This document shows, in pieces, positions 1 to 43,255 of a stretch of 44,894 nt of DNA (position 1 is its first letter; each line of letters starts with the position of its first letter). A model generated the notes under the pieces. That model saw only the letters and a program-made list of their open reading frames with translations, did no database searches and had not been told where the DNA came from. Origin of the DNA: a virus. The DNA lies in IMG/VR virus record IMGVR_UViG_3300025929_000005, positions 1 to 44,894 of that record; one strand, given 5' to 3'. Made by a program: the position numbers and the translations under genes.

Positions 1-127
1 GGAAATTGAACCTCAAATTCTTTGATGCGTCGTAATAGATGTACCAACCGGATTGCGTACTGAGTGACGGATCGCCATAACCAGCGATATATTGCAGCGT
101 CGTTGAAAGTCCTGCACCGGCTTTAAA
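1..127. repeat. Left copy of 127-bp terminal repeat
   Basis: Identical to bases 44768-44894. It lies inside a coding sequence that reads through the join, so it is most simply a circular-assembly overlap (127 is a common assembler k-mer) and not a physical terminal repeat. Confidence 0.97.
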
Positions 128-493
128 CCAAAAATCTACATAGAAGTCTGACGTCCCAGCGCCATACGCACCATTTTGGCTAGATTGGATTCGGGCGTTA
201 GAGGTCGCCGATCCTAGATACGACGCCGTGCCGAATTTAGGTGCTGTCGTGGACGTGGTGGCCGACGATGCGGTCCAGGTCGCAGCAATGCCGCCAGCAT
301 TGTTGTCAGCGAACGACGTGCCACCGTTCGCTCCATCCATATGAAGCAATGCAAGCGTGTTGTTGTTATTCCCCGGAGCGCATTGGCCACGAGGCTGTCC
401 TGATCCGCCGCCGGGGAAGCCCGCATAGGCTGGCGTCAGAAGCGCGAGCGCGAGAAGGCCAGCTAGGATGCGCCGGATCAATTGACGCTCCAT
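1..493 (-). CDS. Secreted LamG/concanavalin-like receptor-binding protein, N-terminal part (split by contig ends)
   Basis: This is the 5' part of a gene whose 3' part is at 44460-44767; joined, it gives 266 aa. The ATG at 493 overlaps the stop of the upstream fibre gene by 16 bases. The protein begins MERQLIRR, followed by a hydrophobic core and a TPAYA|G signal-peptidase site, so a Sec signal peptide of about 24 residues is clear. The mature part has the LALLHMDG start and DFWFKAG segment typical of LamG / laminin-G-like jelly-roll domains that bind carbohydrate. Position next to the tail fibre suggests a receptor-binding or depolymerising tail component. A TTG four codons downstream is an alternative start. 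The exact ligand is unknown. Confidence 0.8.
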   Translation of the reverse strand, partial: MERQLIRRILAGLLALALLTPAYAGFPGGGSGQPRGQCAPGNNNNTLALLHMDGANGGTSFADNNAGGIAATWTASSATTSTTAPKFGTASYLGSATSNARIQSSQNGAYGAGTSDFYVDFWFKAGAGLSTTLQYIAGYGDPSLSTQSGWYIYYDASKNLRFNF

Positions 494-1779
494 TCGGTGC
501 CGTTATAGGTCACCGATGCTGATTGCCGCGAGATGTTCATCACATAGGTGGCGGCGCCGTCGATGGTGCCGGCCGCTGGTGTTAGCGTGATGTTGTTCGA
601 CGAGGCGTCGCCCTTGCAGTCCTTAATGAGGTACGTCGACCATGTGGCTGGGCTGGCAGGCAGATTAACGGCGGTTGCGGCGCCAACAGTTTTGTTGATG
701 CATATGAAATAGTCGGTTGTCGCCGAGACTGTGACTGCACCTGCGGCAGTGACCACACGGCCGGGAATGCGCAGCGCGCCCGTCCATGTCGTGACGCCGG
801 AGAAGGTGTTGTTGCCGTTCTTCAGCGGGACATTAGAGGAAAGCCGTCCATCGGCCAGCGTGCCGGATGCAATGTTCGTCGCGTTGGTGGCGTCAGTTGC
901 GCAGGACGCCGAGGCGTTCGACAGGTCGGCGCACGCAGCTTGTGAGACTGTGCCGGTGCCGTTGGCCTTCAAAGCCCCCGTGACCGTACCAGCCCCGCCC
1001 CGCGCAGAGCCGAGGATGCCGGTCGATATGTTGCTGGCGTTGGTAGTGTCGGTGGTTGCCGATGCGGCCGGCAAACCGCCATCCCCGAGGACTGCGCCGG
1101 AGGTGTCGGTGAAGATCGCAAAATGTCCGGTGCCGGAAGTGCCGGGTCCGACCACGTTGCCGGAGCCGGGACCGCCGGTATTGCAGATCGGGTTGAGGCC
1201 GGTGGCGTCGAAGCTCAGGAACTTGCCGCTGCACAGCGACGGCAGAGGCAGCGGGCCGACGGTGTTGCCGGGCTGGCTGAAAAGCCCGCGCCCGGTCATG
1301 TCGTTGGTCTTGTCCCAAATCTCACGGTTCTGCGCGATGATGTCGGTCAGGACTTGGTTGAGGTCGCGAGCGGCGACGCCGCGGTTCTCGGTGAATTGCG
1401 AGACTCGCCGTGGACGGCGCGCGCCGACGATCTGGATCGTTCCGGTCTGCGCCTGATTGAAGGTCAGCACCGCATCGGTGACGGGACGCGCGATGGATGC
1501 CAACGGGCCGGTCGGACTGGTGATCGTCCAGCCGAAGGTCGAGTCATTATAATTGACCCGCACGCCATTGATGAAGACCTCGAGCCAGTTCTGGTAGTCG
1601 GTCGAATCCCCGTAAAGCGCGAAGTTGACGTTGCACTGGCAGGTGTTGGCGCTGATCGAATAGCTGGTTCGGCGCTCGGCATCTGGAAGCCCAGGCACTG
1701 GCGGCGGGGCCTGCGCGAAGGATGGCGCGATGCCAGCGAGGAAGCCAAGGGCGATCAGGGCGGCGCGGATGTGTTTCAT
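478..1779 (-). CDS. Tail fibre with T7 gp17-like N-terminal domain and signal peptide
   Basis: 433 aa. After a signal peptide (MKHIRAALIALGF to APSFA|Q) comes a segment, residues about 36-155, with the pattern of the T7 tail-fibre attachment domain: LEVFINGVRV near 66-75, a beta-rich FGWTITSP stretch, VLTFNQAQ near 104-111, and ARDLNQVLTDIIAQ near 137-150 leading into a helix. Residues about 160-340 are Gly/Ala/Thr-rich shaft with two TNA.NI.SGTL-type repeats, also found in the beta-helix protein at 12652-15522. The last 90 residues form a compact, probably receptor-binding, tip ending NGTEWSVN. An in-frame GTG at 1818 is possible, but the ATG at 1779 places the signal peptide at the N terminus. 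It is transcribed after the internal virion proteins. Confidence 0.82.
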   Translation of the reverse strand: MKHIRAALIALGFLAGIAPSFAQAPPPVPGLPDAERRTSYSISANTCQCNVNFALYGDSTDYQNWLEVFINGVRVNYNDSTFGWTITSPTGPLASIARPVTDAVLTFNQAQTGTIQIVGARRPRRVSQFTENRGVAARDLNQVLTDIIAQNREIWDKTNDMTGRGLFSQPGNTVGPLPLPSLCSGKFLSFDATGLNPICNTGGPGSGNVVGPGTSGTGHFAIFTDTSGAVLGDGGLPAASATTDTTNASNISTGILGSARGGAGTVTGALKANGTGTVSQAACADLSNASASCATDATNATNIASGTLADGRLSSNVPLKNGNNTFSGVTTWTGALRIPGRVVTAAGAVTVSATTDYFICINKTVGAATAVNLPASPATWSTYLIKDCKGDASSNNITLTPAAGTIDGAATYVMNISRQSASVTYNGTEWSVN

Positions 1780-1821
1780 GCCGGGAGCATGGCTGCATTG
1801 GCGATGGATGCACCGCACCCG

Positions 1822-4800
1822 TCAGCGGTTCTCGGGCTTGCCCTTCATCTCGATGCCGAACGAATTGTTGGCTGATGCCTCGACCTGATCGAACAGGCGG
1901 CGGACATAGAAGACGTTCTGACCGCCGACCAGCCGCCGGAGCGATTTACTGTCAGCCTCGTTCCATTCCGAGGGCTTCGACGCCGCGCTCACTGCGCCGA
2001 GAACCTGCTGGATTTTACCAGCGGTCGGGCCAAGAAGCTGGTCCATCGCGGAGCGTGAGGCATAGCGGGTCAGAGGCTTGCCCGATCCGACCAGCCGGTA
2101 CACGTCGACGCCCCCCCGGGTCGCCTTGGAAGCGAGCGCGTTGCCCTCCTCGAACCAGCCCAGCAGGTTGCCGCGCGAGATGGATTCCTTCACCCAGTCG
2201 CCCGCATTGTTGCTGACCGGCGAGCCGCCCGTCACGCTGTTGATCTTATAGGACAGCATCCCGAGGCCCATCGAGAACAGCATGCCCTGAAGCACCTGCG
2301 CGTCGCGGCGCTGAAGGTTGCTGATCAGCACGCGCTCGGTCGCGGCGGCGGTGAACGACTTGAACTGGCCCAGCACGGAGAGGATTCCATGGCTCATCCA
2401 CAGCGGCTTTTCCTGCCCCGGCGTGACCACGGCAATGTCGGCATCGCGCGCAACCGCACCCTCGAATACCCGGCGCGCTTCCTTGTCGGCCCAGTCCCCA
2501 GTGTTCGGCAGATGCACGCCATCGCGGACCTCACCGCCGGTCTTGAAGGCTTCATGGATGCGGGCGGCCATGTGCGGCTCGATGCCGCTTTCCCCCAGGT
2601 TGCGCAGTTGTCGAGCGGTGAGTTTCCCGTTCACCGACGCCTCGGCAGCCCGCAGAATCTCCGACGATGCCACGAGCGAGGCGCTGGTCTTCGCCCAGTC
2701 GGTCCACGGCGCCAGCATATTGACGAACTGAAACTTGTTCGTCGCCCATTGCAGCGTGCGCTCGACCCGCGACTGCGGATGGTAGGTATCCAGCGTGTCG
2801 GTCAGAGCGTGATGCCGGGAGGCCAAGGTCATTTCCACCGAGATGCCCATGGCGCGGAATTGCTTGTGCGCCTCGGAAAAGGCGTCGGACTGCCGTGTCA
2901 GGAATTTGAAGAACGGCGTCCATGCGTCGTTGAATGTGGTGGTCAGTCCGTGACGGATGACGGCCCCGGCCATATCCGGCAGCGAGGACAATGCAGCCGA
3001 TCCCATACTGGTGAGCACGTTGTAATTCTTCAGAACGCCGGCGGCGCGGGCGACGTTACGCAGTGGCGCGTCGGCCGAGATGCCGTAGGTGCCACGGATG
3101 CGGTCGCGGATCGCGGCAAGGTCGCTGTTGACCCGCTGCCGTTCTTTTTCCAGTGCCGTCCGCTCTTTCTCCGACTTGGCTGCTGCCACTTTGGCCGCGT
3201 ATTCATCGTTGATCTTGCGGAACGTCTCGGTCATCCGGGTATCGCCGAACTTCTCGGTCAGCAGCACGTCCGGCACCATGGTGCGCAGGTGCGATGACAC
3301 GATGTGCTCGGCGTCGTTCTCGAGAAAATCCTTGATCGTAGCGTCGGGTATATTGAACTCCCGCTGGGCCAGCGCGCCACGCGGCTGCTCGCCGCTGGAA
3401 ACCCCGCCTGCCCCGTGCTCCATGCCCAGATCGTAAGGCAACCGGCCATCAGGCGAGCCGAGGATGCGGTCGGTGATCTCGTCGGCCCGGCTTTGCAATT
3501 CGGCGCGCGACATCTCGCGGTCGGATTTGAGGATGCGCTTCACGGTCTTGTCGATGGTCTTGTCCGCCGAGGTCATGCGTTTGGCGTCAGGAGCGCGGCT
3601 TTCCTCAGCCTTCGCGCGCGTCTTCAGCGCCGACTTCGCCTCAGCCACGGACTTGCCCTGCCAGTCCGCCAGCTCTTTCTCGATCTGCTTGCGAGTGCGA
3701 TCGTGCGTCTCATTCGCCCGGATCAGGTCTTCCTCAAGCTGGCCCCGGAACAGGTCTTCATCTTTGGTCTTGGCGAGTTTCTTCGTGAGGTCGTCGATTG
3801 ATTCCTGCGCGCGGGAAAGTTGATCGGCCAAGCCGTCGATCCGGCTTTTCGCCTGCGCCTTCGATGCCTGATCGGATTCCAGCCAGTCGGTCACGCGGTT
3901 CACGAACTCGGGCCGCTTCGCCGCGATGGCCTGCTTGTTGTAAAGCCGCTGCACGTAGCTGTCGGCGGTCTTCACGTCCACGTCTTCCGGCAACAATCCG
4001 GCGTCGATGGCGCGCTTCTTCATGGGATCGAAGATGTTGTTGCGCAGGAATTGTGCGGCCTGCTGCACCTGAGGAATCTCATGCTGATCGCCGTTGCGCA
4101 GCGCTTCGGTGACCTCCTCCTTGAACTGATCGAAGGACATCTTTCCTTCTTCGGCGCGGCCGGTCAGGTCTTCAACCACGCCCCGCGCGCGAGGAAACGA
4201 CTTCTGCTCGCCGAACCGATAGTCGGAAAACAGGCTCGATAGTTCGTCGCCCGTGCGCACCTGCCCCTGATGGATCATCAGCCGGGCTTCCCGATCGAGC
4301 GCCGGGCCCGCCGTGGTGACGCCACCCTCAAGGTTCTCCTTGGTGAGAAGCGAGGTTTCGGCCAGATCGGCCGCCGCACGCCGGGCTGTCACGCTCTCGG
4401 CGCCGAACATGCGCTGCATCGGGGAAGTCTTCTCCACGACGTTGCGCAGGCCGGGCACCTGGTTCAGGCCGAAGTCGACCAGCTCGACCTTGCGCGTATC
4501 GGTCGCCGCTGCACCGACCGCCGCAGGATATGCGGTACCCGACGGTTCATTAACATTCGCCGGGGCTGGCGGCTCGGTCGGCTTGAACTCCGGGCTCGCC
4601 GGGTTCTCAGCGTGCGTGTTGATGTCCGCCCGGTCCTGCCACAGCTTCGTCTCGATGGCCGCGCGCTCGGGCGCGGAGAACACACGCGCCGCCCCGCCGC
4701 CGATCAGGGCCGTCAGCAGCGTGCCGCTCGCCACGTTGAGGGCCGATTCCGAAGCCGTGCGGGTTTCCTGCGTGCCTTGCAGCAATGCTTCCTGCGCGGT

Positions 4801-5298
4801 CGTCTGCATCAGGCCAGCCTTGCCGAGGTTGATGGCTGCCTTGGAGAAGGCGAGCCCGCCGCGCGCTGCGTCGACAGCCACACCACCGGGCAGCAGCAGT
4901 GTCGGATCGAGGATACCCGCAACCGTCTGCGCAATGAATCCGGTGCCACCGTTCGCTGCCAGCAATGACCGATCCTTGGTTTCCTGATCGATCTGCGCCT
5001 TGATCGACTGGCTTTCGGCCGGCGACTGGGAGCCCACGAATGCCGCGCCGTTGTTCAGCAGATAGTTCGGGTCTTTCCAAGCCTTCACGTCGTCGATGGG
5101 GTTGTAGCCCGGGGTGGGCGCGAAGCTGCCGGAGTTGCGCGCATACTGGATAGCGGACATCACGGTGTTGGTCTGGCGGAAGGCTGCAGCGAACAGCGCC
5201 TCGCCGCCGTCATTCGGCTGCGGCGCGTTCACCGGGGCCTGTCCCTGCCCGGTACGCTCGATCAATCCGCCGTCGTTCGCAACGTCGATCCCGGCCAT
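1822..5298 (-). CDS. Large internal virion protein (T7 gp16/gp15-like role)
   Basis: 1158 aa with no signal peptide. Ala/Gly-rich hydrophobic patches near residues 120-215 (IAQTVAGILDPTLLLPGGVAV, TLLTALIGGGAARV) are typical of ejection proteins that contact membranes. A long charged coiled-coil section (about 480-600) follows, with many Lys/Glu residues. The C-terminal third is helical. Length and position directly after the 1199-residue lysozyme-bearing protein match the third ejected core protein of podoviruses. Its start overlaps the preceding stop (TAATG), implying coupled translation. Function is inferred from size, order and composition; no enzymatic motif is seen. Confidence 0.8.
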   Translation of the reverse strand: MAGIDVANDGGLIERTGQGQAPVNAPQPNDGGEALFAAAFRQTNTVMSAIQYARNSGSFAPTPGYNPIDDVKAWKDPNYLLNNGAAFVGSQSPAESQSIKAQIDQETKDRSLLAANGGTGFIAQTVAGILDPTLLLPGGVAVDAARGGLAFSKAAINLGKAGLMQTTAQEALLQGTQETRTASESALNVASGTLLTALIGGGAARVFSAPERAAIETKLWQDRADINTHAENPASPEFKPTEPPAPANVNEPSGTAYPAAVGAAATDTRKVELVDFGLNQVPGLRNVVEKTSPMQRMFGAESVTARRAAADLAETSLLTKENLEGGVTTAGPALDREARLMIHQGQVRTGDELSSLFSDYRFGEQKSFPRARGVVEDLTGRAEEGKMSFDQFKEEVTEALRNGDQHEIPQVQQAAQFLRNNIFDPMKKRAIDAGLLPEDVDVKTADSYVQRLYNKQAIAAKRPEFVNRVTDWLESDQASKAQAKSRIDGLADQLSRAQESIDDLTKKLAKTKDEDLFRGQLEEDLIRANETHDRTRKQIEKELADWQGKSVAEAKSALKTRAKAEESRAPDAKRMTSADKTIDKTVKRILKSDREMSRAELQSRADEITDRILGSPDGRLPYDLGMEHGAGGVSSGEQPRGALAQREFNIPDATIKDFLENDAEHIVSSHLRTMVPDVLLTEKFGDTRMTETFRKINDEYAAKVAAAKSEKERTALEKERQRVNSDLAAIRDRIRGTYGISADAPLRNVARAAGVLKNYNVLTSMGSAALSSLPDMAGAVIRHGLTTTFNDAWTPFFKFLTRQSDAFSEAHKQFRAMGISVEMTLASRHHALTDTLDTYHPQSRVERTLQWATNKFQFVNMLAPWTDWAKTSASLVASSEILRAAEASVNGKLTARQLRNLGESGIEPHMAARIHEAFKTGGEVRDGVHLPNTGDWADKEARRVFEGAVARDADIAVVTPGQEKPLWMSHGILSVLGQFKSFTAAATERVLISNLQRRDAQVLQGMLFSMGLGMLSYKINSVTGGSPVSNNAGDWVKESISRGNLLGWFEEGNALASKATRGGVDVYRLVGSGKPLTRYASRSAMDQLLGPTAGKIQQVLGAVSAASKPSEWNEADSKSLRRLVGGQNVFYVRRLFDQVEASANNSFGIEMKGKPENR

Positions 5299-8200
5299 TA
5301 CGGTTGCGCTCCGCCGGACTGGAATTGAATTTCGCGCATGGCGTTCATGTCGTCCTGTCGACCTTGCAGCTTGGCGGTGTGCGCCGCGATGCGATCAGCC
5401 GGATCGAAGGCGATCCGCGACGGGATGATGTCGAGGGTGCCGTCTGCCCGCTTGATGGCGACTTGATAGGATGGCGGCTTGCCGTTGGCGATTTCGGCCT
5501 GCGTCTGTCCATCGGAGATGAGGCCCTGCACTTGCCAGTTACGGTCGCGCACGACACCTGCGATGCCCATTTCCAAGCTACTCATTCCCGAAGACTTTCG
5601 AGCGCTTAGAAAAGCCCCAGTGTCTTTGTCCATGAACGAATGCATCTGCTGATAGCGAGCCTCAGCTTCTGCCTCCGATTTGTACGAGGGGAATTTTTCC
5701 CAGCCGATCTTCTCCACCTTCGCGATAGCAGCGGCAGCAGGATCAGCAGCATTCTTGTCCCAGAGGATTTTGCCGTCGAAGACCGTCGGGATCGTATAGA
5801 ATTTCCCATCGTGCTCAGCGGTAGTTTGGAAAAGCGTCGAACGACTGCCCTGCGGATTCTCAGGCGTCGGAGCGTTATCCACACCGCCGGGGCCCATTAA
5901 GTTCGAAAGGTGCCGTTCGTACAGTGCCTTTTCCTGTGGAGTGAGGTTCAGCGCATTTTCCGCATCCGGCAAGTTAGATTTGATGTTGATGCCGAACTGT
6001 GGCCCGACCTTGCCGGCCACCCACGATTTCAGGTCGTCTGCGATCCAGTCGCTCTTGCCGCCGAGCTGCGGGTAAAGCCGCTCGGGCGGGTTCTTCATGA
6101 TCTGGTTTCCGGCGGCTTCCGAAGGCCCCCACGTCGTCGCCAGCCGCTTGACCGCCAGATCGTTGGCACGGTCGGCATCGACTCCATAGGCGCGCAGGGC
6201 CGTGTACGTAGCCTTGTAATCGGCAACGAGCTCACCACCCTTGATGCTGTCGAACGGCGCGCCCGGCGTCGACCCGGTAATCTGACCAATGACAGGCCAG
6301 CCGGAGCCGAGCTTGTAGGCCATGTCGGAAGCGGAGATCGATTTGACCTCTTTCTCGGCTGCCTCCTTGGCGACTTCCCGCGATTTCGCCGTCGCCGGGT
6401 CGTCCGACAGGTTCAGACGCTCGGCCAATTCCTGCGGCGCGAAGCTGTCCTTCAATGCCTGCCATGCCTGCAATCGCGTGATCGCGGCTGAGCCGAACTG
6501 CCCTTCCGCCTCCGCCGCGTTCTGCCGCCACCGCTGATCCACGAAGGCCATGGCGGCTGTCATGCGCGCCGGGTCCTTGCTCGACATCATGCCGCTCACG
6601 GCGCCGACGAAATCCTTTTGCCCGAGCAACGTCTTCATATCGTCGGGGTTGAGCGCGGTCGCGAGCCCGGTGAGCACCTGCGGCCCAGCCTGCCCCTGCA
6701 ATGCAACCTGCATTCGGCCCATGTCATCGCCGTCGAGCAGCGGCGGATTCGGTGACTGGTTCAATTGTCCGATGCGCTGGGACAACTGCGCGCGCTGCGC
6801 AACGGCCGCAACGATTCCGTCAGGTTTCGCAGGATCAATCTCCGCCGGCGGCGGCGTCCAGCCACGTCGCGCGGCCTCTTGATAGGGATGGTCCTGCATG
6901 TTCTTCTGGGAGTCCTGCTGCTGCTTCAGCGCAGCGGCAGCGACGTTCATGTGGTGCACGTCCGAGCCGTTGGCGGCGGCGCGATACTGCTCCTTGATCT
7001 GTTCCTGTTGCGGTTGCGGCAACTGTGCGATCTGCTGACCCTGCAGCCGACCGCGGATTTCATCGGCGACTGCCCCCAACTTCTCGGGATACAACTTCGC
7101 CGCCTGCTCCACCTCGGCATAGGCGCTAGGCGATGGGAGGATGCCGTTATCGAGCGCTTTGCCGATGGCGGTCGCCGTCTGCTTGGCCGACTGCACGCGC
7201 AATTCCGGGTCTTCCGCGAGCGTGCGCACATAGGCCGACAGCAGGAACGGGTTTTGCTTCACCTGCTCAGCCGTGAATCCGGTGCCGCCGTTCGCCGCCG
7301 GCGCACGGAACTGGCTCGCCGGTTGGCGGCCACCCGGCAGCGATGACCACTGGCCGGACAACACGGGCAGCACGCCGTTGATGGCTTCCTTATCGCCAGA
7401 TCGAAGCACGGTCAGAAGGTCCTGCCCGGTCTTCGCCTTGTATGTGGTCTGCGCCAAATCCCACGCGGCAGCATCCTGGCTGGCTGGCGAGAAGTCCTTC
7501 AGGCCGAGCTTCGCCTTCTGTGCATCCCATGTCGGTCCGATGAACTGGTAATAGCCCGCCGCGCTGCTGGTCTTGCCGACATCGGGACCGGACGTGATCG
7601 CCTCCGCTACGCGCGGATGGTCGCCGTAATCCGTGAACACGCGCGGGCCGGTGCCGGAATATCGCACGTCGTAGCGATTGTTGGATTCGGTCTGCCCGAT
7701 AATCTTCAGCAGGCCACGCCCCTCCGGCGGGATGCTGGTGTTGACGGGCTCGCCGCCGCCCTTCGGCACGCCGAGAACTTCGCCTTGGATCGCATCCGGC
7801 AGCGAACTGATGCCGCGAAACTGCTTTGCGACAGCCGCCGCCGCGGTGATCCGCTGGGCGCCCTCGGTGTCGCCGATGTCGCGCGCACGCTGGATCGCCT
7901 GACCGACCGCAGGGTCTTCCGGCTTCACGGTGCCCTTGCTCAGGCCCGTTTCAAACTGGGTGGTGATCTGCCGGTTGGCATCGATGGTAGCCTTGGCGTC
8001 GCCCGTGAGATACGCGAGCCGCGACAGGCCCTGCGTGTACAGGCGCGAGCGGTCGGATTCCTTCAGGTTGGGGTTTTGCAGGATGCCTTCCTGAAGCACC
8101 TTCTGCGCTTCGGCCTTACCCTTTTTGTTGAACGTTCCATCGACATGGGCAACCAGCGCCTCGCCTTGCAGTAGGCCCTGCACGTTCTTCTTCTCAAGCT

Positions 8201-8897
8201 CAATCTGATCGACCGGCATCTTGAAAAGAGGATTGGTCGCCAGCGCATCATAGGACGCCAGCAGCTTCTGGTTCGCCTGCGCAAACTCCGGCGTGTCGGT
8301 CCCGCCCTGCCGAGCAAGGGCAATCATCGTCCCCTTCTGATCCTCGATCTGGGCGGTGATCGATTTCTTCTGGTTATCGATATCGTTCGAGGCGGTCGTG
8401 CTGGTGATCGCGTTGTAGTGCTGCGTGAGAAGCTGGGAGCCCTGTTGCTGGATCGCCTCGCCCATCGGACCGGTGACGGTCTGCGCAGTCTTGTCGAGGT
8501 GCGCCTGCGCCGCCGCCTTGAAGCCAGCGGGATCGGTCGGGAATTTCGTGTGCAGTTCGGCGAAGTCCTGAGACAGCGAATTGCTGTGCTGCGCGATGGT
8601 GCCGACCTTCACCGCATCCGAGAATACCCGTCCCGCATCTCCGAAGATCAGCGGCGACGAAACCGGGTTCTCAACTGATACTGAGCCATCCGCATTGCGG
8701 ACGACCTTCTGGTTCATCAGTTCATCGGCCGCTTCTTTCTTCGCGCCCTGTTTCGCCACGTCCATCATGACGTCGGCGACATTGCCCGCTGCATCGGCCG
8801 CCTGATTGTACGAACGCCGAATGTCGTTTCCCGTCACCGACGATTGCGGCGCGCGGGAGGTGACGATACCGGTGTCTACCTTCGGAAGATCGACCAT
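5298..8897 (-). CDS. Internal virion protein with lysozyme-like (GH104 / lambda R-type) domain
   Basis: 1199 aa. Residues about 394-540 read as a lysozyme-fold muramidase/transglycosylase: GRGLLKIIGQTESNNRYDV, then FTDYGDHPRV, then SSAAGYYQFIGPTWDA and LGLKDFSPASQD. The Glu in QTESN (about 404) is the likely catalytic acid. The layout matches the lambda endolysin R / GH104 family inside a virion core protein, which would open peptidoglycan during DNA ejection. The rest is helical. Near the C terminus (about 1060-1140) is a small module with KFYTIPTVFDGKILWD, frequent in podovirus core proteins. It lies between the gp14-like and the 1158-aa core proteins. Confidence 0.87.
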   Translation of the reverse strand: MVDLPKVDTGIVTSRAPQSSVTGNDIRRSYNQAADAAGNVADVMMDVAKQGAKKEAADELMNQKVVRNADGSVSVENPVSSPLIFGDAGRVFSDAVKVGTIAQHSNSLSQDFAELHTKFPTDPAGFKAAAQAHLDKTAQTVTGPMGEAIQQQGSQLLTQHYNAITSTTASNDIDNQKKSITAQIEDQKGTMIALARQGGTDTPEFAQANQKLLASYDALATNPLFKMPVDQIELEKKNVQGLLQGEALVAHVDGTFNKKGKAEAQKVLQEGILQNPNLKESDRSRLYTQGLSRLAYLTGDAKATIDANRQITTQFETGLSKGTVKPEDPAVGQAIQRARDIGDTEGAQRITAAAAVAKQFRGISSLPDAIQGEVLGVPKGGGEPVNTSIPPEGRGLLKIIGQTESNNRYDVRYSGTGPRVFTDYGDHPRVAEAITSGPDVGKTSSAAGYYQFIGPTWDAQKAKLGLKDFSPASQDAAAWDLAQTTYKAKTGQDLLTVLRSGDKEAINGVLPVLSGQWSSLPGGRQPASQFRAPAANGGTGFTAEQVKQNPFLLSAYVRTLAEDPELRVQSAKQTATAIGKALDNGILPSPSAYAEVEQAAKLYPEKLGAVADEIRGRLQGQQIAQLPQPQQEQIKEQYRAAANGSDVHHMNVAAAALKQQQDSQKNMQDHPYQEAARRGWTPPPAEIDPAKPDGIVAAVAQRAQLSQRIGQLNQSPNPPLLDGDDMGRMQVALQGQAGPQVLTGLATALNPDDMKTLLGQKDFVGAVSGMMSSKDPARMTAAMAFVDQRWRQNAAEAEGQFGSAAITRLQAWQALKDSFAPQELAERLNLSDDPATAKSREVAKEAAEKEVKSISASDMAYKLGSGWPVIGQITGSTPGAPFDSIKGGELVADYKATYTALRAYGVDADRANDLAVKRLATTWGPSEAAGNQIMKNPPERLYPQLGGKSDWIADDLKSWVAGKVGPQFGINIKSNLPDAENALNLTPQEKALYERHLSNLMGPGGVDNAPTPENPQGSRSTLFQTTAEHDGKFYTIPTVFDGKILWDKNAADPAAAAIAKVEKIGWEKFPSYKSEAEAEARYQQMHSFMDKDTGAFLSARKSSGMSSLEMGIAGVVRDRNWQVQGLISDGQTQAEIANGKPPSYQVAIKRADGTLDIIPSRIAFDPADRIAAHTAKLQGRQDDMNAMREIQFQSGGAQP

Positions 8898-8901
8898 TTC
8901 T

Positions 8902-9384
8902 CTAACCCGCCATCATCGGCATGCCGCTAATGCCCTTCGCGACGCCTGCAGCGGCGTTCACGTAGCCGAGCGTCAATGCGTTCTTGGAAGCCGTCCGGTA
9001 GAACGCTGCGTCGGAGCGGTCCTGCGCAGCCTGCGCGCGGAGGCCACCGACCGCGATGCCGCGGTTCGTCTCGCCGATATCCTCTTGATTGTCGCGATAG
9101 GCCGCGCCGGTCGGAGAAGTTGGATCGGCATGTGCGGCCGAGCGCACGGCGTCGATATTGCCGAGCACCGTCGTCAGGTTGCGCGTCATCTGGGAATTGG
9201 TCTGCGTGGCTTTCAGGTCGCCGTATTGCGCGGCAATCTCAAGCCGCTGCGCCTGATACTTATCGGCTTCGGATTCGCCCTGCGATTTGAGCAGCGTCGC
9301 GAATGTCGACAAGCCGATGCTGGCAATTGACCCGCCAGATGCGGATGATCCACCCGATGCTCCTGAACCGCCTGCTTGTCCCAT
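8902..9384 (-). CDS. Small internal virion protein (T7 gp14-like position)
   Basis: 160 aa. It begins with a Gly/Ser-rich segment (MGQAGGSGASGGSSASGG), then a helical body with Ala/Gln-rich heptads (ESEADKYQAQRLEIAAQYGDL). The order tail tube B, then this gene, then the lysozyme-bearing core protein is the classic podovirus arrangement for internal virion protein A. The ATG at 9384 has a GAGGACAGGA ribosome-binding sequence just upstream. The longer frame starting at 9543 overlaps the tube B gene and lacks protein character. Confidence 0.78.
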   Translation of the reverse strand: MGQAGGSGASGGSSASGGSIASIGLSTFATLLKSQGESEADKYQAQRLEIAAQYGDLKATQTNSQMTRNLTTVLGNIDAVRSAAHADPTSPTGAAYRDNQEDIGETNRGIAVGGLRAQAAQDRSDAAFYRTASKNALTLGYVNAAAGVAKGISGMPMMAG

Positions 9385-9394
9385 AGTCCTGTCC

Positions 9395-11689
9395 TCAGAT
9401 CGTCGCTTCGATACCAAGCTCCTCAATGAGCAATGGTCCTGGTGTGTCCTTGATGATCGCCACGCGCGGATCGAACGAGCGCCCGAGCGGTCGCCATCGT
9501 TCTGCCGTCTCACGCAGCGGTGGCGGAGCCGTCGGATCGTCATCCTGATTCCACGTCGTGACGCGCCTGGTGTTCATTACGGTGCCGAGCGGCGGAGACG
9601 TGCGCGTGATCGGTCCTGAGAACAGTCGCGCCATCAGGAAGCCGGTCGAATTGACCACATAGGCGGCAAAACGCGAGATGCGGCGCTTGAACATGCGCTG
9701 GCCCACATCGCTGCCTGGATTGGCGTCCGGGCAGAATGGCTCTGCCACCATCGTCCATTGCTGGCCCGCGATGAGGCTTGCAGCGTTCAGGTCTTCGCCG
9801 CCGTTAAATTGTGGGACGATGAATCCGTTCGCGTCGATCTGGTATGTGCCCATCGAGCGCGTGACCTGATCCATCAGGTTCACGGTCTGAGACGGGATGA
9901 ACCATAGCGGACCCTTGCCGCCCGGTGGCGCGAACGCAGCAGGCGCGGAGTTCACCGGAAGCGAGGCGTCGAGATACTGATTGTCGTCGAGGATTTCGCA
10001 GATCGGTGTTCCGAAATAGCTAGTCGAGAACAGCACGTCTGACGCCCACGCAGCCACCCATGCGACTGCGCCGACACCGTTCCACGGTCCCCAACCGATG
10101 CCGCCCTTAATCTCGCCGCTCTGCGTCGTGTACTTGCCGACGATGAGCGAGCCGTCAGAGTTCAGCGCGTAGATGTAGCGTTCATTAAACGTGCCATCCG
10201 CCGTGGGCACCGCGAGCGCGACCACGTTGCTGAACAAGTCGGAGTGAAATTCTGTCAGGTTGTTCGTGTTGAACGGACGATTGTAGGCACCCGGTGCCGT
10301 GATCGCGACGACGCTATTCCGCCCAGCGTTGACATACACCAAGGCTTCCTGAGCGGCGCGCGGCTGCACCTGAGCGCAACCATCGCTCGACAGGATTTGA
10401 AAGCCGACGCTGCCGGGGACCAGAGGATTGGTCGCATTGATCAGGATGTAATAGAGCTTGCGGTCGCAGAAAACGAACTCCGAACTCTCCATGCCGGGGA
10501 CGACATAGAACACGCGGCTCTTGTCTGGAACGATTTCGAAGATCGCATTGCTGGGCGACGACGCATCGTTCGCATAGAGATCAGTCGGCGAGTTTATGGC
10601 GGACCAATTGATCCCGCCCGGCACCGATGGGAAATCGCAGAAACCGAGGCGGAATTGATCCGTGAAGCATGACGCGGGATAGCCCCGCAAATCGTTCATG
10701 ACTTCATCGTCCCATACGGTGACAGCGAGCGGCGCCTGAATGGCTGACTGAGTTTGCGACGCAAGAGAACCACCGGGTCCGACAATGTTCTCCGGCACGA
10801 ATGCGTAGACGCCGCTTCCCGCAGGCGATCCGTTTGGAAGTACAACGGTGTCGTTGGTGAGAAGCTGGACCTGCATCGTATTAGGGGAACCGTTCAGCGT
10901 GATGACGATACCCTTCGAATTCGACGTTGCCCCGATAACCTGATCCCCGATGCTGAAGAACAGCGCAGGATTGCTAGTGAACTGGATGGTCTGACTGCCG
11001 GGCAACGTTTCCTCGACCGTCGCGGTGACGTGCGTGGAATCCGTGAATGCTGTGATCAAAAGCTGCCGGCTGACATAACGAATGCGCGTGCCAACCAAAG
11101 CCGCGCTAAAGACAGGCGACGATGCAACAACAGTTACGCTGCCGGTCGTTGCAGATGGTGCAATCGTGATGCCTTGCGGGCTGATGCGATAGAACGTCGT
11201 GCGCTTCTGGTTGCCAGCAAGGAGTTCGGCGTAATCCGATATCGCCCATGTCGACACGCCGTCGAACGCAACGACCTGAGGTCGCATCCCTGCGAACGCG
11301 ATGTAGATGCTGGTGTTGAAGATCGCATAGACAATCGAGTTCAGATTGAACGCGGTCCACGGCAGTGCGGCACCATTGCCCTGCGTGGTGAACTGCTGAA
11401 CGACAGCGCCGACAGAATTGATGATCTGAATACGGCTAGGCCCAAAGGCGATTTTGAAAGTCTTGCCGACCGAGATCGTGAACTCCTCGATCCGCGCGCA
11501 GCTATTCGTGATCGGAAATAGCGCCGTCCGACCGGATCGGTTCTGGATCGATGTCGCATTCAGGATGCGGGCATTGACCATCTGCCGCAGGCCAGCTTTA
11601 CGAGCCGGATGATCGTCCTGCCGCTTCAATGAAACGTCGACCTGTCCGAAGGAAAAGTCGCGCTGGGCTCCGAGGATTTTCTGCACCAT
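9395..11689 (-). CDS. Tail tubular protein B (tail nozzle)
   Basis: 764 aa. The N terminus (QRDFSFGQVDVSLKRQDD, then GLRQMVNARILNATSIQNRSGR) and the long beta-rich body match podovirus nozzle proteins (T7 gp12 type), which form the distal tail tube. The stop of tail tube A overlaps its strong GAGGTGAT ribosome-binding sequence 4 bases before ATG. Neighbours are tube A upstream and the gp14-like core protein downstream. Length is normal for the family. Confidence 0.85.
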   Translation of the reverse strand: MVQKILGAQRDFSFGQVDVSLKRQDDHPARKAGLRQMVNARILNATSIQNRSGRTALFPITNSCARIEEFTISVGKTFKIAFGPSRIQIINSVGAVVQQFTTQGNGAALPWTAFNLNSIVYAIFNTSIYIAFAGMRPQVVAFDGVSTWAISDYAELLAGNQKRTTFYRISPQGITIAPSATTGSVTVVASSPVFSAALVGTRIRYVSRQLLITAFTDSTHVTATVEETLPGSQTIQFTSNPALFFSIGDQVIGATSNSKGIVITLNGSPNTMQVQLLTNDTVVLPNGSPAGSGVYAFVPENIVGPGGSLASQTQSAIQAPLAVTVWDDEVMNDLRGYPASCFTDQFRLGFCDFPSVPGGINWSAINSPTDLYANDASSPSNAIFEIVPDKSRVFYVVPGMESSEFVFCDRKLYYILINATNPLVPGSVGFQILSSDGCAQVQPRAAQEALVYVNAGRNSVVAITAPGAYNRPFNTNNLTEFHSDLFSNVVALAVPTADGTFNERYIYALNSDGSLIVGKYTTQSGEIKGGIGWGPWNGVGAVAWVAAWASDVLFSTSYFGTPICEILDDNQYLDASLPVNSAPAAFAPPGGKGPLWFIPSQTVNLMDQVTRSMGTYQIDANGFIVPQFNGGEDLNAASLIAGQQWTMVAEPFCPDANPGSDVGQRMFKRRISRFAAYVVNSTGFLMARLFSGPITRTSPPLGTVMNTRRVTTWNQDDDPTAPPPLRETAERWRPLGRSFDPRVAIIKDTPGPLLIEELGIEATI

Positions 11690-11700
11690 GGCTGATCACC

Positions 11701-12381
11701 TCAGCCAGGATTACCGTTGCCACCCCAGCCGCTCGGCACGGGAGGCCACGGGCGACGAATGAGCCGCGCCGCCGAGATGCGGGAATTGAACATGGCCCGC
11801 TTCGGCTTCTGCATGTCGTGGCGGGACCTCGCCTCCTCAAGCATCGCGCGCGCGGCATTGAGCATGTGCGCGGCCTCGCCAGCATCCTCATGCAGGCCAC
11901 GGTAGATGCCCGACATCACGAAAAACTGCATCGCCAGAATGACGGTCGGAGTGCCGTTCTGGACGTCTGAATTCGTCGAGAAGATGCCCTTGATCGTTAC
12001 CGGCAGGGCGGTCAAACCCTGCGCCTGCGGGGTGGGTCCGCCCATGGAATTGCAGACAAGCTGACCTGCCTGAAGGTCCCACAGGCATGGCCGGTCGTTC
12101 ACCCGCACAAGGATCAAGTGGACCAAATCGCTGGGGATATTGTAGGCGGTGTCGTAGGTGTCGTCGGCAGGCTTATTGGCGGCCGGTTGCAGCGCCCGGA
12201 AGGTCGTCACCCACGCCCACGGATGGGCCTCAGTGACATAGGCAAGCCCGCGCTCATAGGCCGGGGAGCAGGTATTCCACTCGTCAGAACCATCGTTTGC
12301 GGCATTGACGAGGTTATCCCCGGTCTGCGAGAGAGCAGAGTTGATCAATCCGAGCTTGTCTAGCGGCCATTCGAAGGACAT
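11701..12381 (-). CDS. Tail tubular protein A (adaptor)
   Basis: 226 aa beginning MSFEWPLDKLGLINSALSQTGDN. The opening helix, the AYERGLAYVTEAHPWAWVTTFRALQ segment (buried helix with aromatic cluster) and the later DLVHLILVRVNDRPCLWDLQAG strand region fit the T7 gp11 / tail-adaptor family, which joins the portal to the nozzle. The GTG-style longer start at 12420 is less likely, because family members start near this Met. It is followed 11 bases later by tube B. Confidence 0.82.
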   Translation of the reverse strand: MSFEWPLDKLGLINSALSQTGDNLVNAANDGSDEWNTCSPAYERGLAYVTEAHPWAWVTTFRALQPAANKPADDTYDTAYNIPSDLVHLILVRVNDRPCLWDLQAGQLVCNSMGGPTPQAQGLTALPVTIKGIFSTNSDVQNGTPTVILAMQFFVMSGIYRGLHEDAGEAAHMLNAARAMLEEARSRHDMQKPKRAMFNSRISAARLIRRPWPPVPSGWGGNGNPG

Positions 12382-12651
12382 GCTGGACCGTGAACCGGTC
12401 GGGATAACCGAACAACGCACCGCCCAGCCCTATCCGGTGTGCCAACATTGAATCGAAGTACAGGAAAAACCGCATGACCTCGCCAACGAAGAATAAAATT
12501 GAGCGTTTTATTGAGATTTTCAGGCGATCGCGAACGCACGTGCCGAGCAGTTCCGAAAAACTGACCGCTTGCAGCGAGAGTCCGCTTTATGATCACGACT
12601 GCAGAACATCATCGGATGTAATGATGTCGATGAGTTCCAGGCGAGATTAGA
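12382..12651. other. 270-bp intergenic gap between beta-helix protein and tail tube A
   Basis: No convincing gene. It is AT-richer than its surroundings. There is a 7-bp AT-only inverted repeat (12492-12498 with 12506-12512) with no good U-run, so it is not a convincing terminator. An untested promoter for the tail-tube/core genes could be here, but I see no clear -35/-10 pair. Confidence 0.5.
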
Positions 12652-15522
12652 TCATGGGGAAGTCGTCAGAAGTTTCAGACCAAAACTGGCTGACGTGATA
12701 GTGGCGGAGCCAGTGCTCGATACCACCTTGATTGAAAGAATCTGGCCTAGAGAAAACGAGTTCGTATGCGATGTATCACTACACCCCGAGTTTGCGGATG
12801 TGACGATGCAGGTTAGGGCTGTATCGGAAAAGCTGTTTCTTACGGTCACCGTATAGGTACCTGAGCCGCCCGGAGGCCCCTGAAACGCGGTAACGAGATT
12901 GCTCAACGTGCCGCTTGCGGGCAGAAGGAATGTGCATTCGCTCGCACACATCGATCCGAGGCTTATATAGCCGGTGGTGTTTGCCGCTATAGTACCGGTT
13001 GTGGCCGCCCCGATTATCATGTTGGTTGTCGGGATGTTCGTCAGGGTGTTGCTTGAACCGCTAATCGTCTTATTCGTCAGCGTCTGTGTTGCCGCGATAC
13101 CTGCGACGGTATCTGTGCCCGGGAAAAGGGTTGCCGTGCCACCGCCGGTCACAGGAGCATTTACGACCGTTGCTCCGCTTGTCGCGCCGAGCAGTTCAAA
13201 TTTGCTGGGTGACAGCACCATCAATCCCGCAGCATCGATGCGAACAGTTCCAGACGTGCCAAGATTAGTATTGCTACCGCTCGAGCCTACTGTGAGCGGA
13301 AGCGAAGAAGTCAACGATGCTGCCCCGCCTCCGGCGGTGCTGTTGGCCTGCATGAGGACAGAGCCCGCGTTGCTGGTCGCGGCGATCCCGGCAACTGCAC
13401 TACTGCCAGAGTTGGAATTTGTGGAAGTGATTAGTTGATTGCCGTTCGTCGACTTTGTGGCGGACACCGCGCCGTTTACATTCACAGCGCCGAACGTCGC
13501 AGTCTGAGATGCGGGATTCCCGCTACAGGTCGATGCGCCTTGCTTGAAGACGCAGTTCGAGCCCATGCTGGAATGGGTGCCCACTAAATTATATCGCCCA
13601 AGGGTTCCGTCAGTAGTGGCGTTGTCCCCTATGACGTTGTAGTCAGGAGCCGTCGACAGGCCATCGTTATATTCATTCACGGCCCATTGCATATTAGCGT
13701 TGGGATCGACGATTGTATTTCCGAACACGCTATTATTCTGCCCATTCCAAAGAATGATCGCCGCGTTGGCATTGCCAGCTGTCGATTTGCAGTTCGCTGC
13801 ATTGATGATCGTGTTTCCGGTGATCGTCACGCCACTGACGTTCTGATCAACAGCGATCCCTCCGGCGCAAGCATTTACAACTGTATTTCCTACAAATAGG
13901 CCATTCGAAGCAGTTTCTCCAACCGGGCCCCATACGTCGATTCCCTGATCGATTGGAGTACTCGTAATGAATTTCACGACGTTATTGGCGACGGTGAAAT
14001 TCTTTACGACGGCAAGATTTATTGACTCGACAGTTGTGTCTGTTACCTGATTGTCCGAGATCGTAACGCCATCGTAAAGAGCGGTACCATTTCCATTGAC
14101 GTTGATTCCGAACGAAGTTCCGCAACCCGTAATGATGTTTCCCGAAATAGTGATGTCACTTCCAGGCTGACCCACGCCAGAAATGCTAGCCTGAATGCAA
14201 TAGAATGGCGCAGTGTTTACCGTTCCTCCGACAACGTTACTTACGTTGTTGTGAAGAATTTTTGTTACGGTGCAATCGCTGCACGAGATTCCAATGTTTG
14301 AGTAAGTTGGGATAAGGTTTTTCTCAATAACTGTTCCGCTCGATGCGATGACATCAATTGCGTTCGCCCCATTCGCGGTGATGCTATCTATCGTGAGGTT
14401 CGTATTGTTTTTGAATCGAACGCCGTCGATTCCTAGAGGCGATCCATCAACGCTGATCTGACGAACTGTGAAATTTGCATTCCCGTCGCCATAAAGAACG
14501 CCGAGCGCAGGCGCAGAAGCTGACCCCGCCGCTACGAGATTGCATCCACCATAGATGACAGACGATCCACTTGTGGGCACCGTGATAGGTTGCGTGTAAA
14601 ATGTTTGGCCGGCCGGACAATAAACTGGCTTGCCGGTCGCTAGCGCGGCCTGAAATGCTGTTTGGTTGGTGACATATGCTCCCGAACTACTTGCTACGGC
14701 GCCGTAATCCAGCACATTCACTGCGGTATTATTCCCACCTCCCGTGCCGCACGTAGCACCAGCATCTGCTACATTTCCACTGGCATCCCACTGTGCACAA
14801 TTGCCGGACACGGGCGATCCAGCCACAGTCACGAACTTGCTCGTGTTTCCGGATGCAGAGCCGCTCGCAAATGGTGTTGGAAGTCGTGAAGTGTTCAGGG
14901 TTCCTGACGTGATGTTGCTCGCGTTCGTCTGGTCTACGTTCGCAACATTGCCGAGGCCGACATCGGCCTTCACGATTCCGGTAGGTGTAACGATATTTGG
15001 CGACGTGCCGAATACAAGCGAACCAGAACCGGTTTCATCCGACAGCACGCCCGCAAGCTGCGTGGACGTCGTGCTGGAGAATTGTGAAAGAGGATTCGCG
15101 GTCAGGCCGACTCCGGACAGGCGAGAATTCGAAAGTGTTCCGCTTGAGATGTTGGCGGCGTTCGTTGTGTCCGTTGTGGCCGACGGCGCGAACGCCACTC
15201 CGTTCGTCTTGACGCAGGTGTAGGTGAACACACCGCTCGACGAGAGTGAGGTGAGGCAGTCGCCCGCACCGGAGACAGCCTGCGCGGTCGCCACGTTCGA
15301 CGGCGAGCCGATGAAGATTTGACCGGACGGCAGCGACGGGACGCCCCCGCCCCCGCCCGCAAGAATCGCGGCCTGCACCATCGCCGTGGTGGCGATCCGA
15401 TCGCTGCTGTCAGCAGTCGGCGGGGTTGGCGCGACGCAGTTTCCGCCGCCGCACATCTGCGCAGCCGCCGGAACCGAAAGACCGATGACGATGAGAAGAC
15501 CGAGAGCGGCGCGGCGAAGCAT
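12652..15522 (-). CDS. Secreted pectate-lyase-like beta-helix tailspike / depolymerase
   Basis: 956 aa with a signal peptide (MLRRAALGLLIVIGLSVPAAA|Q). Residues about 115-215 hold two TNA.NI.SGTL..SRL repeats. A pectate-lyase-3 type start follows near 268 (NVLDYGAVAS, then NQTAFQAALATGKPVYCPAG). A right-handed parallel beta-helix with recurring Asn/Ile/Thr ladders (NVVGG, ISGNIITGC, ISDNQVTD, NVVKF, GNTVVNACAGG, GNTIINAAN) runs to about 650. The C-terminal part is Ser/Thr/Gly-rich. Such proteins degrade or bind surface polysaccharide. Start chosen at 15522 because GGGAG lies 8 bases upstream; a GTG at 15537 is in frame. Base composition of the helix part is visibly AT-richer than the neighbours, a sign of module exchange. 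Confidence 0.8.
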   Translation of the reverse strand: MLRRAALGLLIVIGLSVPAAAQMCGGGNCVAPTPPTADSSDRIATTAMVQAAILAGGGGGVPSLPSGQIFIGSPSNVATAQAVSGAGDCLTSLSSSGVFTYTCVKTNGVAFAPSATTDTTNAANISSGTLSNSRLSGVGLTANPLSQFSSTTSTQLAGVLSDETGSGSLVFGTSPNIVTPTGIVKADVGLGNVANVDQTNASNITSGTLNTSRLPTPFASGSASGNTSKFVTVAGSPVSGNCAQWDASGNVADAGATCGTGGGNNTAVNVLDYGAVASSSGAYVTNQTAFQAALATGKPVYCPAGQTFYTQPITVPTSGSSVIYGGCNLVAAGSASAPALGVLYGDGNANFTVRQISVDGSPLGIDGVRFKNNTNLTIDSITANGANAIDVIASSGTVIEKNLIPTYSNIGISCSDCTVTKILHNNVSNVVGGTVNTAPFYCIQASISGVGQPGSDITISGNIITGCGTSFGINVNGNGTALYDGVTISDNQVTDTTVESINLAVVKNFTVANNVVKFITSTPIDQGIDVWGPVGETASNGLFVGNTVVNACAGGIAVDQNVSGVTITGNTIINAANCKSTAGNANAAIILWNGQNNSVFGNTIVDPNANMQWAVNEYNDGLSTAPDYNVIGDNATTDGTLGRYNLVGTHSSMGSNCVFKQGASTCSGNPASQTATFGAVNVNGAVSATKSTNGNQLITSTNSNSGSSAVAGIAATSNAGSVLMQANSTAGGGAASLTSSLPLTVGSSGSNTNLGTSGTVRIDAAGLMVLSPSKFELLGATSGATVVNAPVTGGGTATLFPGTDTVAGIAATQTLTNKTISGSSNTLTNIPTTNMIIGAATTGTIAANTTGYISLGSMCASECTFLLPASGTLSNLVTAFQGPPGGSGTYTVTVRNSFSDTALTCIVTSANSGCSDTSHTNSFSLGQILSIKVVSSTGSATITSASFGLKLLTTSP

Positions 15523-15527
15523 GGCCG

Positions 15528-15902
15528 TCACTCCCACTCAAAGACCGTAAGGGCGGAACTGGCGGTGTTCGAGATTGCATTCCAAGCCGACGGCACCAGC
15601 GGATTGCCGCCGACGCCATCGAGCACCTGCGAGGCATACGGCAGCAGCGTGATCGAGCCCGCGCCGTTGACCGTGCAATTGATCGCCGCCGAGTTCGCGC
15701 GGCTGATGGAAGGGCATACCGCGATGATAGCGACGGGGTTGGGGTTCACAAACATGATCCGGCGGCGCGATGGGTTCAGCGCCATCACCGCGACCTGTGA
15801 GGTCCCCACGGTCACCGGATAGGCATATGGCATCTGCGGCGTCTGGGCGCGCGCAGGGATCGCGGCAAACAGCAGGGCAATGGCGAGAAGGATGCGGGTC
15901 AT
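15528..15902 (-). CDS. Small secreted beta-rich protein (virion-associated?)
   Basis: 124 aa. It has a signal peptide MTRILLAIALLFAAIPARA|Q and then about 105 residues of beta-rich sequence (YPVTVGTSQVAVMALNPSRRRIMFVNPNP). Two Cys in the mature part (CPSISR, INCTVN) could form a disulphide. GGAG sits 7 bases before the ATG. It is the first gene after the UUCG terminator and is followed within 5 bases by the beta-helix protein, so a role in host recognition is plausible. I do not recognise the family. The longer frame from 15953 has no ribosome-binding site and would bury the signal peptide. Confidence 0.72.
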   Translation of the reverse strand: MTRILLAIALLFAAIPARAQTPQMPYAYPVTVGTSQVAVMALNPSRRRIMFVNPNPVAIIAVCPSISRANSAAINCTVNGAGSITLLPYASQVLDGVGGNPLVPSAWNAISNTASSALTVFEWE

Positions 15903-15962
15903 GCGGCAACTCCGATATTGCCGCCAAGATGCGTCAGCCATGAAACCGGGCAACGCACCATG

Positions 15963-15990
15963 AAAAAAGCCGCCCCGAAGGGCGGCTTAA
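15963..15990 (-). terminator. Rho-independent terminator with UUCG tetraloop
   Basis: On the minus strand a perfect 9-bp stem starting AAGCCGCCC closes a UUCG loop and runs directly into a T run (six T including the stem end). It lies 24 bases after the stop of the 16014-16601 gene. It would end, or attenuate, transcription of the packaging/capsid part of the late operon before the receptor-binding genes. Confidence 0.93.
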
Positions 15991-16013
15991 GTTGTGAGGT
16001 ACGCGCCGGGAGA

Positions 16014-16601
16014 TCAGAAATAGCCGTAGATGATGCTGACCGTGAGGTTCGCCGTATTCGAGGAGGTCACCGGAGCAAGGTGCAACGGCGTTCCTGCGGT
16101 CGTAGAGAACACCCGCTTAAGCAAGGTGGCATCGGTGACGAACACGAGAGCATTCGCACCCACCGCCTGCGCAGCCACGATGTCGGTGCCGTTAGCCGTG
16201 GTGCCGAGCGACACGCCGCCGGTCACAGCATTGGCCGTGGTGTTCTGAACGATCACCTGCTGGATGTAGGCGCCAGCGGGGATCGCACCGATCACGATGT
16301 CACCCGTGCCGGATGCCGGAAGGGCACCGGTGGTGTAGATCAGCGTATTCAGGCTCGGGCCGGGCGTGTAGCCCTGCGAAAGCATGTAGCCGATGTCGCC
16401 CGAAGCGATGATCGCACAACCGCCGGAATTCAGCGAGTAGCGGACGTTCGTGTTCGGATTGACAACGACCTTGGGACCGGCAGCAGTGCCGGCCGCCTCG
16501 GGAGCGCAGAGAACCTGCGACGCCGCGAAAGCCTGCGGGGCCGCGAGGGTCGCCGCAAGAAGCGCCGCGGCGGCGAAGATGAGATGACGAGCGAACTTCA
16601 T
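16014..16601 (-). CDS. Secreted beta-rich protein downstream of capsid genes
   Basis: 195 aa. N terminus MKFARHLIFAAAALLAATLAAPQAFA|A is a clear Sec signal peptide. The mature protein is Gly/Thr/Asn-rich and beta-predicted (VVVNPNTNVRYSLNSGG, IPAGAYIQQVIVQNTT, LTVSIIYGYF), like head decoration or adhesion proteins. Two Cys (about 32 and 62) may pair. The start overlaps the previous stop (ATGA) and the gene ends just before the UUCG terminator, making it the last gene of the capsid transcript. I do not recognise a named family. A head-fibre or decoration role is an inference. Confidence 0.75.
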   Translation of the reverse strand: MKFARHLIFAAAALLAATLAAPQAFAASQVLCAPEAAGTAAGPKVVVNPNTNVRYSLNSGGCAIIASGDIGYMLSQGYTPGPSLNTLIYTTGALPASGTGDIVIGAIPAGAYIQQVIVQNTTANAVTGGVSLGTTANGTDIVAAQAVGANALVFVTDATLLKRVFSTTAGTPLHLAPVTSSNTANLTVSIIYGYF

Positions 16602-17258: not shown

Positions 17259-17741
17259 TCAGCACTCCGGAAGGACGGCGATGAATGCCGACGCGGTGAT
17301 GGACGGCGTGGTGCCGCCCGTGGTGATGTAGAGCGCGGCGTATTCGTAGAGAACGCCTGCGATCTGCGTGCAGAACGGCACTTCGTACCGGCCAACCACG
17401 CTGTCCTTCATGTTCACACCGTCGCGCGAACCGCCCTTACCGAGAGAGATTTCTGCGGCCATGTCCACGTTGCCGGCGCCGAATGCCGGATCGTTTGAAA
17501 CAAGGATGCTGAGACGGTAGGATTCATTGCTGGAGGAGATGTCCAGCGCGGTCACGTCGATTACGGCAACCGCGTCGATGCGCGCCTGCTGAACGGGCGA
17601 CGTGCCCTGATTGCCGCCCAGGTCGACGATGCCGTTGGCACCGTTTGCCTGCGCGAAGCCGGTGGCAGTCTGTGCCGCCGCGCCGTCCGCCAACACGAGG
17701 TTGACGTCGAAGGAATAAGTACGATCGCTCGGGAAGGCCAT
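17259..17741 (-). CDS. Capsid cement protein, Bbp16-like
   Basis: 160 aa. The pattern is like BPP-1 Bbp16-type cement proteins: a start with FDVNLVLADGAAAQTATGF, an inner IVDLGGNQGTSPVQQARIDAVAVIDVTALD strand pair, and a C-terminal VLYEYAALYITTGGTTPSITASAFIAVLPE strand. It directly follows the major capsid gene (11-base gap with AGGAATCG before ATG), which is the position of the cement gene in that family. It would bind outside or between capsomers to stabilise the shell. Assignment is from recalled pattern and gene order. Confidence 0.72.
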   Translation of the reverse strand: MAFPSDRTYSFDVNLVLADGAAAQTATGFAQANGANGIVDLGGNQGTSPVQQARIDAVAVIDVTALDISSSNESYRLSILVSNDPAFGAGNVDMAAEISLGKGGSRDGVNMKDSVVGRYEVPFCTQIAGVLYEYAALYITTGGTTPSITASAFIAVLPEC

Positions 17742-17752
17742 GTTTCGATTCC

Positions 17753-18712: not shown

Positions 18713-18732
18713 AGCTCAGTTCCCCTCTTGCA

Positions 18733-43249: not shown

Positions 43250-43255
43250 ATTATA
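43250..43255 (-). promoter_or_regulatory. Possible internal -10 box in lysis cassette
   Basis: The minus strand reads TATAATATA at the end of the lipoprotein gene, a perfect TATAAT, but the -35 region is poor (CAGTCC at 17 bp). Start would be near 43243, a few bases before the 43234 ATG. Low confidence. Confidence 0.3.

Follow-up and report, generated by a model that had tools for sequence, protein, structure and literature searches.

Signal peptides and paired cysteines on late-operon surface proteins of an IMG/VR virus suggest a particle completed at lysis

The genome and its late operon

We analysed the whole of the 44,894-nucleotide stretch given by IMG/VR record IMGVR_UViG_3300025929_000005 (hereafter the window). 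Its ends form an exact terminal repeat of 127 bp (positions 44768-44894 duplicate 1-127), leaving 44,767 unique bases, which marks the genome as circularly closed (or circularly permuted) with a length of 44,767 bp. The virus is probably temperate, as indicated by an integrase gene. Its MCP is of the epsilon15 gp7 type, and the relatives of its TerL, all at 46% identity or less, include those of Mwe-JY08, EXVC031P and BcepC6B; the virus appears to be a temperate epsilon15/BcepC6B-like podovirus from soil. Copies in Bradyrhizobium genomes (L016 in B. manausense, and L053, of the same family) are among the close relatives of its tail fibre, which makes a Bradyrhizobium-like alphaproteobacterium the probable host. 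The copy in B. manausense (L016:9917-11776), which carries a signal peptide, has neighbours mostly unlike a phage late operon and is perhaps a prophage remnant.

The late operon runs leftward from TerL (23426) through the head, tail and internal protein genes to the fibre (478), then across the record junction to a LamG gene and the lysis genes; all features described below lie on the minus strand. The head and packaging genes (17259..23426) encode a putative cement protein, the epsilon15-type MCP, the scaffold, the portal and TerL. They are devoid of signal peptides, as are tail tubular protein A (11701..12420, a profile match to phrog_394) and the genes between 1822 and 11689 for the core tail and internal virion proteins, namely int2, int1, a small internal protein and tail protein B. 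A transglycosylase-like region is present in int1, and both the int1 and int2 families are nearly free of cysteine.

Interspersed in this structural operon, with short gaps or overlaps between neighbours, are genes whose products begin with a Sec signal peptide. One encodes the tail fibre (478..1779; ATG at 1779, stop at 478). A LamG/concanavalin-like lectin (PF13385, E 8.9e-15) wraps around the ends of the record because the 127-bp repeat makes the genome circular: its N-terminal part, with the signal peptide, lies at 1..493 (ATG at 493) and its C-terminal part past the junction at 44460..44767, and the joined gene encodes 266 aa. A right-handed beta-helix protein (ATG at 15522, stop at 12652; PF13229, E 7.3e-8) is followed upstream by small beta-rich protein 1 (ATG at 15902, stop at 15528) and by small protein 2 (ATG at 16601, stop at 16014), which is predicted to adopt a jelly roll. 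The last late gene (ATG at 42616, stop at 42041) combines a Sec signal peptide with a CHAP/TIGR02594-like hydrolase domain, a match below the curated cut-off. A seventh exported protein, a lipoprotein with the lipobox LGGC (43251..43658), is encoded in the lysis region beside the holin and endolysin genes and is possibly an outer spanin. The holin (43655..43927, approximate because an internal ATG was taken as start; Phage_holin_10, Pam3 gp28 family, E 6.7e-12) lies next to an endolysin of the Peptidase_M15_4 type (43938..44417) that is without a signal peptide, which implies holin-dependent lysis. The two wall enzymes, the hydrolase at 42041-42616 and the M15 endolysin, differ in their export routes.

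Signal peptides and the tail fibre

Signal peptides were scored with a home-made n-h-c/AxA scorer rather than SignalP; known E. coli signal peptides obtained 6.1-10.7, M13 g3 4.0, and four negative controls either nothing or -0.55. The sequence-only reading had placed Sec signal peptides on five proteins of the virion operon and on an enzyme of the lysis region, and all six hold up at unchanged coordinates, with scores of 6.7-11.2 and with n-h-c regions and an AxA site at the N terminus, as in substrates of Sec and signal peptidase I. Over the window and its relatives, where gene calling was crude and the sequence sets rest on whichever relatives could be found, a score of at least 7 was reached by 75 of 431 sense genes versus 1 of 223 antisense ORFs, and by none of the core genes (TerL, portal, scaffold, MCP, tail A, tail B and internal protein homologues). 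These antisense and core-gene controls rule out chance hydrophobic N termini. Export via Tat was also rejected, as the twin arginine is not conserved and is missing from the window fibre and many of its homologues. The signal peptides thus follow assembly class: the fibre, lectin, beta-helix and small jelly-roll proteins have them, and the capsid, portal, tail tube and internal core do not.

The window fibre consists of a 22-residue signal peptide, cut between SFA and QAPPPV, a linker of the form QAPPPVPxLPD, an attachment domain and a variable distal part. Alignment-based scanning yielded 38 IMG/VR fibre loci. Counting the Bradyrhizobium genomic copies as well, there are about 40 homologues of the fibre, and all but two keep a cleavable signal peptide; this frequency may be biased upward because the search pattern PxPVP[AG]LPD adjoins the signal peptide. 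Alanine occupies position -1 of the signal-peptidase site in 37 of 37 homologues and is followed by the conserved linker Q-x-P-P-P-V-P-A-L-P-D. Identity to the signal peptide of the window averages 34%, yet all of these sequences still parse as signal peptides, whereas in a neutral-drift simulation a score of at least 7 was retained in only 1.5-4% of cases at 34-50% identity. The sequences thus argue that the fibre signal is under purifying selection.

Homologues without the segment had been named beforehand as an observation that would count against a role for it. Two distant ones were found, in L050 and in Mwe-JY08 (L017), a cultured phage. As they are devoid of rich cysteine pairing as well as of the signal peptide, they support a lineage-specific export innovation, and on this comparison they do not seem to make the segment irrelevant.

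The sequence-only reading had also assigned the fibre a gp17-like tail-attachment domain. HHalign and Pfam gave no significant link between this domain and T7 gp17, so fold comparison was used, and it bore the assignment out: an AF2 model of the N-terminal domain, of moderate confidence (pLDDT 69), matched 9efk (LME-1) with a Foldseek E value of 1.9e-5 and 7ey9 (T7) with 6e-4. The first 20 PDB matches are all phage tail-complex or fibre chains, mostly T7-type attachment domains, and include solved tails of LME-1, T7, HRP29, Kp7, Kp9, PhiM1 and others. Among homologues the domain is conserved at roughly 55-75% identity and the distal domains are highly mosaic. Similarly, T7 gp17-type fibres of Autographiviridae and other short-tailed phages join an N-terminal attachment-domain fold to a variable distal part, and the gene for T7 gp17 follows the internal virion protein genes; the fibre gene is likewise directly downstream of these genes in the window, in L012-L015 and in Mwe-JY08. 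What sets the window fibre apart is its added signal peptide, its paired cysteines and the conserved QAPPPVPALPD linker; T7 gp17 and the further signal-less fibres examined have no export signal and few, unpaired cysteines. No other fibre or spike candidate, with or without a signal peptide, was recognised in the window, which leaves two possibilities: the virion receives the exported fibre, or a receptor-binding protein went unrecognised.

The small proteins had no relatives in single-sequence scans, and tblastn in cultured phages found none for small protein 2 or the beta-helix protein; relatives of both small proteins turned up inside the loci already collected. The three homologues found for small protein 1 all carry a signal peptide, and the three found for small protein 2 all have a hydrophobic N-terminal signal, one of them below the score cut-off. 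The AF2 model of small protein 2 (pLDDT 65, moderate confidence) resembles phage cement proteins (Pam1, E 1.7e-4) and the tail fibre of Agrobacterium phage 7-7-1, and the protein may, on this predicted fold, be a surface decoration. Its likeness to the cement proteins of Pam1, KHP30 and KHP40 lies in the jelly roll, a moderate-confidence match; it differs from them in its signal peptide and cysteine pair, and is distinct from the signal-less gene adjacent to the MCP gene (17259-17741).

Cysteine parity as a test of export

Disulfide-forming periplasmic proteins tend to have even numbers of cysteines, and cytoplasmic proteins do not. We counted cysteines after removal of the signal peptide, using non-redundant fibres and only proteins with any cysteine. 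Even counts were found in 65 of 69 signal-peptide proteins (27/28 fibres and 38/41 others), versus 31 of 62 core proteins and 76 of 166 other signal-less sense genes, both at chance level (Fisher p 6e-9 and 2e-13, respectively). With one representative per homology cluster, 27 of 31 remained even (p 1.7e-5). The bias of the fibre search pattern leaves this test unaffected. The sole true exception, and the only fibre with an odd count, is L005:10725-12788, with 15 cysteines; of the other odd counts, that of L021_12102 came from a misplaced cleavage site and is truly 2, and L016_11676 looks like a spurious overlapping ORF.

In the window, the mature fibre has 8 cysteines, the LamG protein and the two small proteins have 2 each, and the beta-helix protein has 20, arranged in successive local pairs. 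The hydrolase (42041-42616) has 3, of which two make up a pair and the third is presumably catalytic. In homologues of small protein 1 the second cysteine is shifted, and the mature count stays at two. The two fibre homologues without a signal peptide contain 2 cysteines in 705 residues and 3 in 980, versus 6-20 in signal-peptide fibres, and even counts occur in 2 of 9 signal-less fibres or spikes (T7, Peat1, KpV74, BcepC6B gp18, MEP301 and others).

The attachment domain itself holds either 0 or 2 cysteines, never 1, in 34 of 34 sequences. The two form a CxC motif (mature residues 25 and 27 of the window fibre) that is present as a pair in 25 sequences and wholly absent from 9, and that is seen only together with a signal peptide. 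It stands where the signal-less homologues have a TGPF turn, and the tree is consistent with the motif having arisen once, within the signal-bearing fibres; it could be a disulfide-locked turn or an inter-chain link in the attachment domain. Taken from sequence, the pairing of cysteines speaks for folding in the periplasm, an oxidising compartment. Export of the signal-peptide proteins appears well supported; the actual translocation we infer.

A second fibre family shows the same combination. The cultured phages BcepC6B and PBR31 encode gp19 ('tail fiber protein', L060:20959-22032) and orf35 ('putative structural protein', L064:2932-3741), respectively, both with a signal peptide and an even number of cysteines. 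Scanning for this family gave 19 IMG/VR loci, one of them BcepC6B itself; a signal-peptide-like start is present in 19/19, a frequency that may be inflated because the search pattern MKKLIA lies inside the signal peptide, and some of these signals score below 6 with our scorer. Cysteine counts, to which this bias does not extend, are even in all complete members. Like the window fibre, gp19 and orf35 are late-operon tail-fibre proteins with an N-terminal signal peptide, and BcepC6B shares a related TerL with the window virus; unlike it, they belong to an unrelated family and are located after a signal-less first fibre or spike. The C-terminal tip of gp19 is homologous to the tips of the signal-less KpV74 and Peat1 fibres. 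In the PBR31 paper the signal peptide of orf35 goes unremarked (PMC10975493).

Where the particle could be completed

In the textbook account, particles of tailed phages are completed in the cytoplasm. The sequence-only reading had offered three ways of accommodating signal peptides on virion proteins: assembly from the periplasm at or after lysis, uncleaved structural anchors, or action on the envelope of the producing cell. The first is the best supported here, and we think it probable that the particle is built in two compartments, its surface parts being periplasmic and joined to finished particles at lysis. The capsid, portal, tail tube and internal proteins would be made and assembled in the cytoplasm, giving fibreless, DNA-filled particles, while late translation would send the fibre, beta-helix protein, lectin and small jelly-roll proteins out through Sec. 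Signal peptidase I would cut the fibre after AxA and before Q, and the exported surface proteins would undergo oxidative folding, disulfide formation and trimerisation in the periplasm. The holin would then open the inner membrane, the signal-less M15 endolysin would reach the wall, and cytoplasmic particles and periplasmic fibres would mix and join.

That the exported fibre joins the particle is the step we infer: if the outer parts are exported and the remainder is made in the cytoplasm, contact between the two would have to come as the cell bursts. In T4 and P22, the addition of tail fibres and tailspikes to finished particles works in mixed extracts, which makes late joining seem physically reasonable. 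Two counterpoints are that joining after lysis would face dilution, and that two distant fibre homologues work without a signal peptide.

Among other explanations, the strongest, though we hold it unlikely, is that the exported proteins are not virion parts and instead coat the producing cell or the lysate and mask receptors, giving superinfection exclusion or keeping progeny off debris. The lectin and beta-helix domains might attach to surface glycans, and lambda Lom is a known example of a surface protein that a phage encodes and exports (PMC12309495). A masking protein is expected to be without a tail-attachment domain, yet the window fibre has a T7-type one, conserved to a degree that a free blocker does not need; the genes sit inside the structural operon, and no further candidate for receptor binding came to light in the window. 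Rather less probable is a dual use, with one fraction exported for a surface role and another escaping export, or starting internally, and assembling in the cytoplasm. This would explain an attachment domain behind a signal peptide without any joining at lysis, and the linker valine codon is GTG, a potential start, in 20 of 37 homologues. It is another codon in the remaining 17, so the internal start is not conserved and was rejected as an explanation of the segment; moreover, the attachment domain has paired cysteines of its own.

We regard it as improbable that the signal remains uncleaved and the proteins unexported, with the segment built into the virion as a hydrophobic plug or anchor for use during infection. 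The segment does directly precede the attachment domain, but the invariant signal-peptidase site and the pairing of cysteines in the mature parts, typical of periplasmic folding, disfavour such an anchor, and signal peptides also occur on many unrelated proteins without attachment domains. That the signal peptides are functionless leftovers of adhesin genes once acquired from the host's secreted proteins would suit the mosaic distal domains and is very hard to credit, as neutral drift would have destroyed signal peptides that nearly all the fibre homologues retain despite extensive divergence.

The exported proteins so far known from phages act in lysis, as antiholins or in exclusion, or form the coat of phages extruded through the membrane. 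Signal-peptide endolysins, spanins, antiholin RI and Lom are, like the window proteins, phage-encoded Sec substrates, but they are non-virion proteins without a tail-attachment domain. The filamentous g3p and g8p of M13 are virion proteins that use Sec, as proposed here, but are membrane-anchored and extruded without lysis; the terminase, portal, tail, holin and endolysin of the window set it apart, and the holin, endolysin, terminase and portal rule out assembly by extrusion of the filamentous type. We found no report of signal-bearing or Sec-exported tail fibres in tailed phages in the open literature, and the target proteins of phage DGRs are stated outright to have no signal peptides (PMC6199706). 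A route of export followed by joining thus seems undescribed for tailed phages. On balance, and with slightly less confidence than in the two compartments themselves, we favour a new assembly route with lysis as its last step and a disulfide-bonded, periplasmic surface, which would have arisen at least twice, in alphaproteobacterial phages and in the BcepC6B/PBR31 family.

If assembly in two compartments is correct, the virion would be non-infectious before lysis and the timing of lysis would become a step of assembly. The host Sec and Dsb systems would be host factors for phage infectivity, and fibres would gain disulfide-stabilised folds that are barred in the cytoplasm. The combination of a signal peptide and an even number of cysteines in a late operon would also serve as a genomic rule by which receptor-binding proteins of uncultured phages could be located, and with BcepC6B and PBR31 in culture the idea is testable at once.
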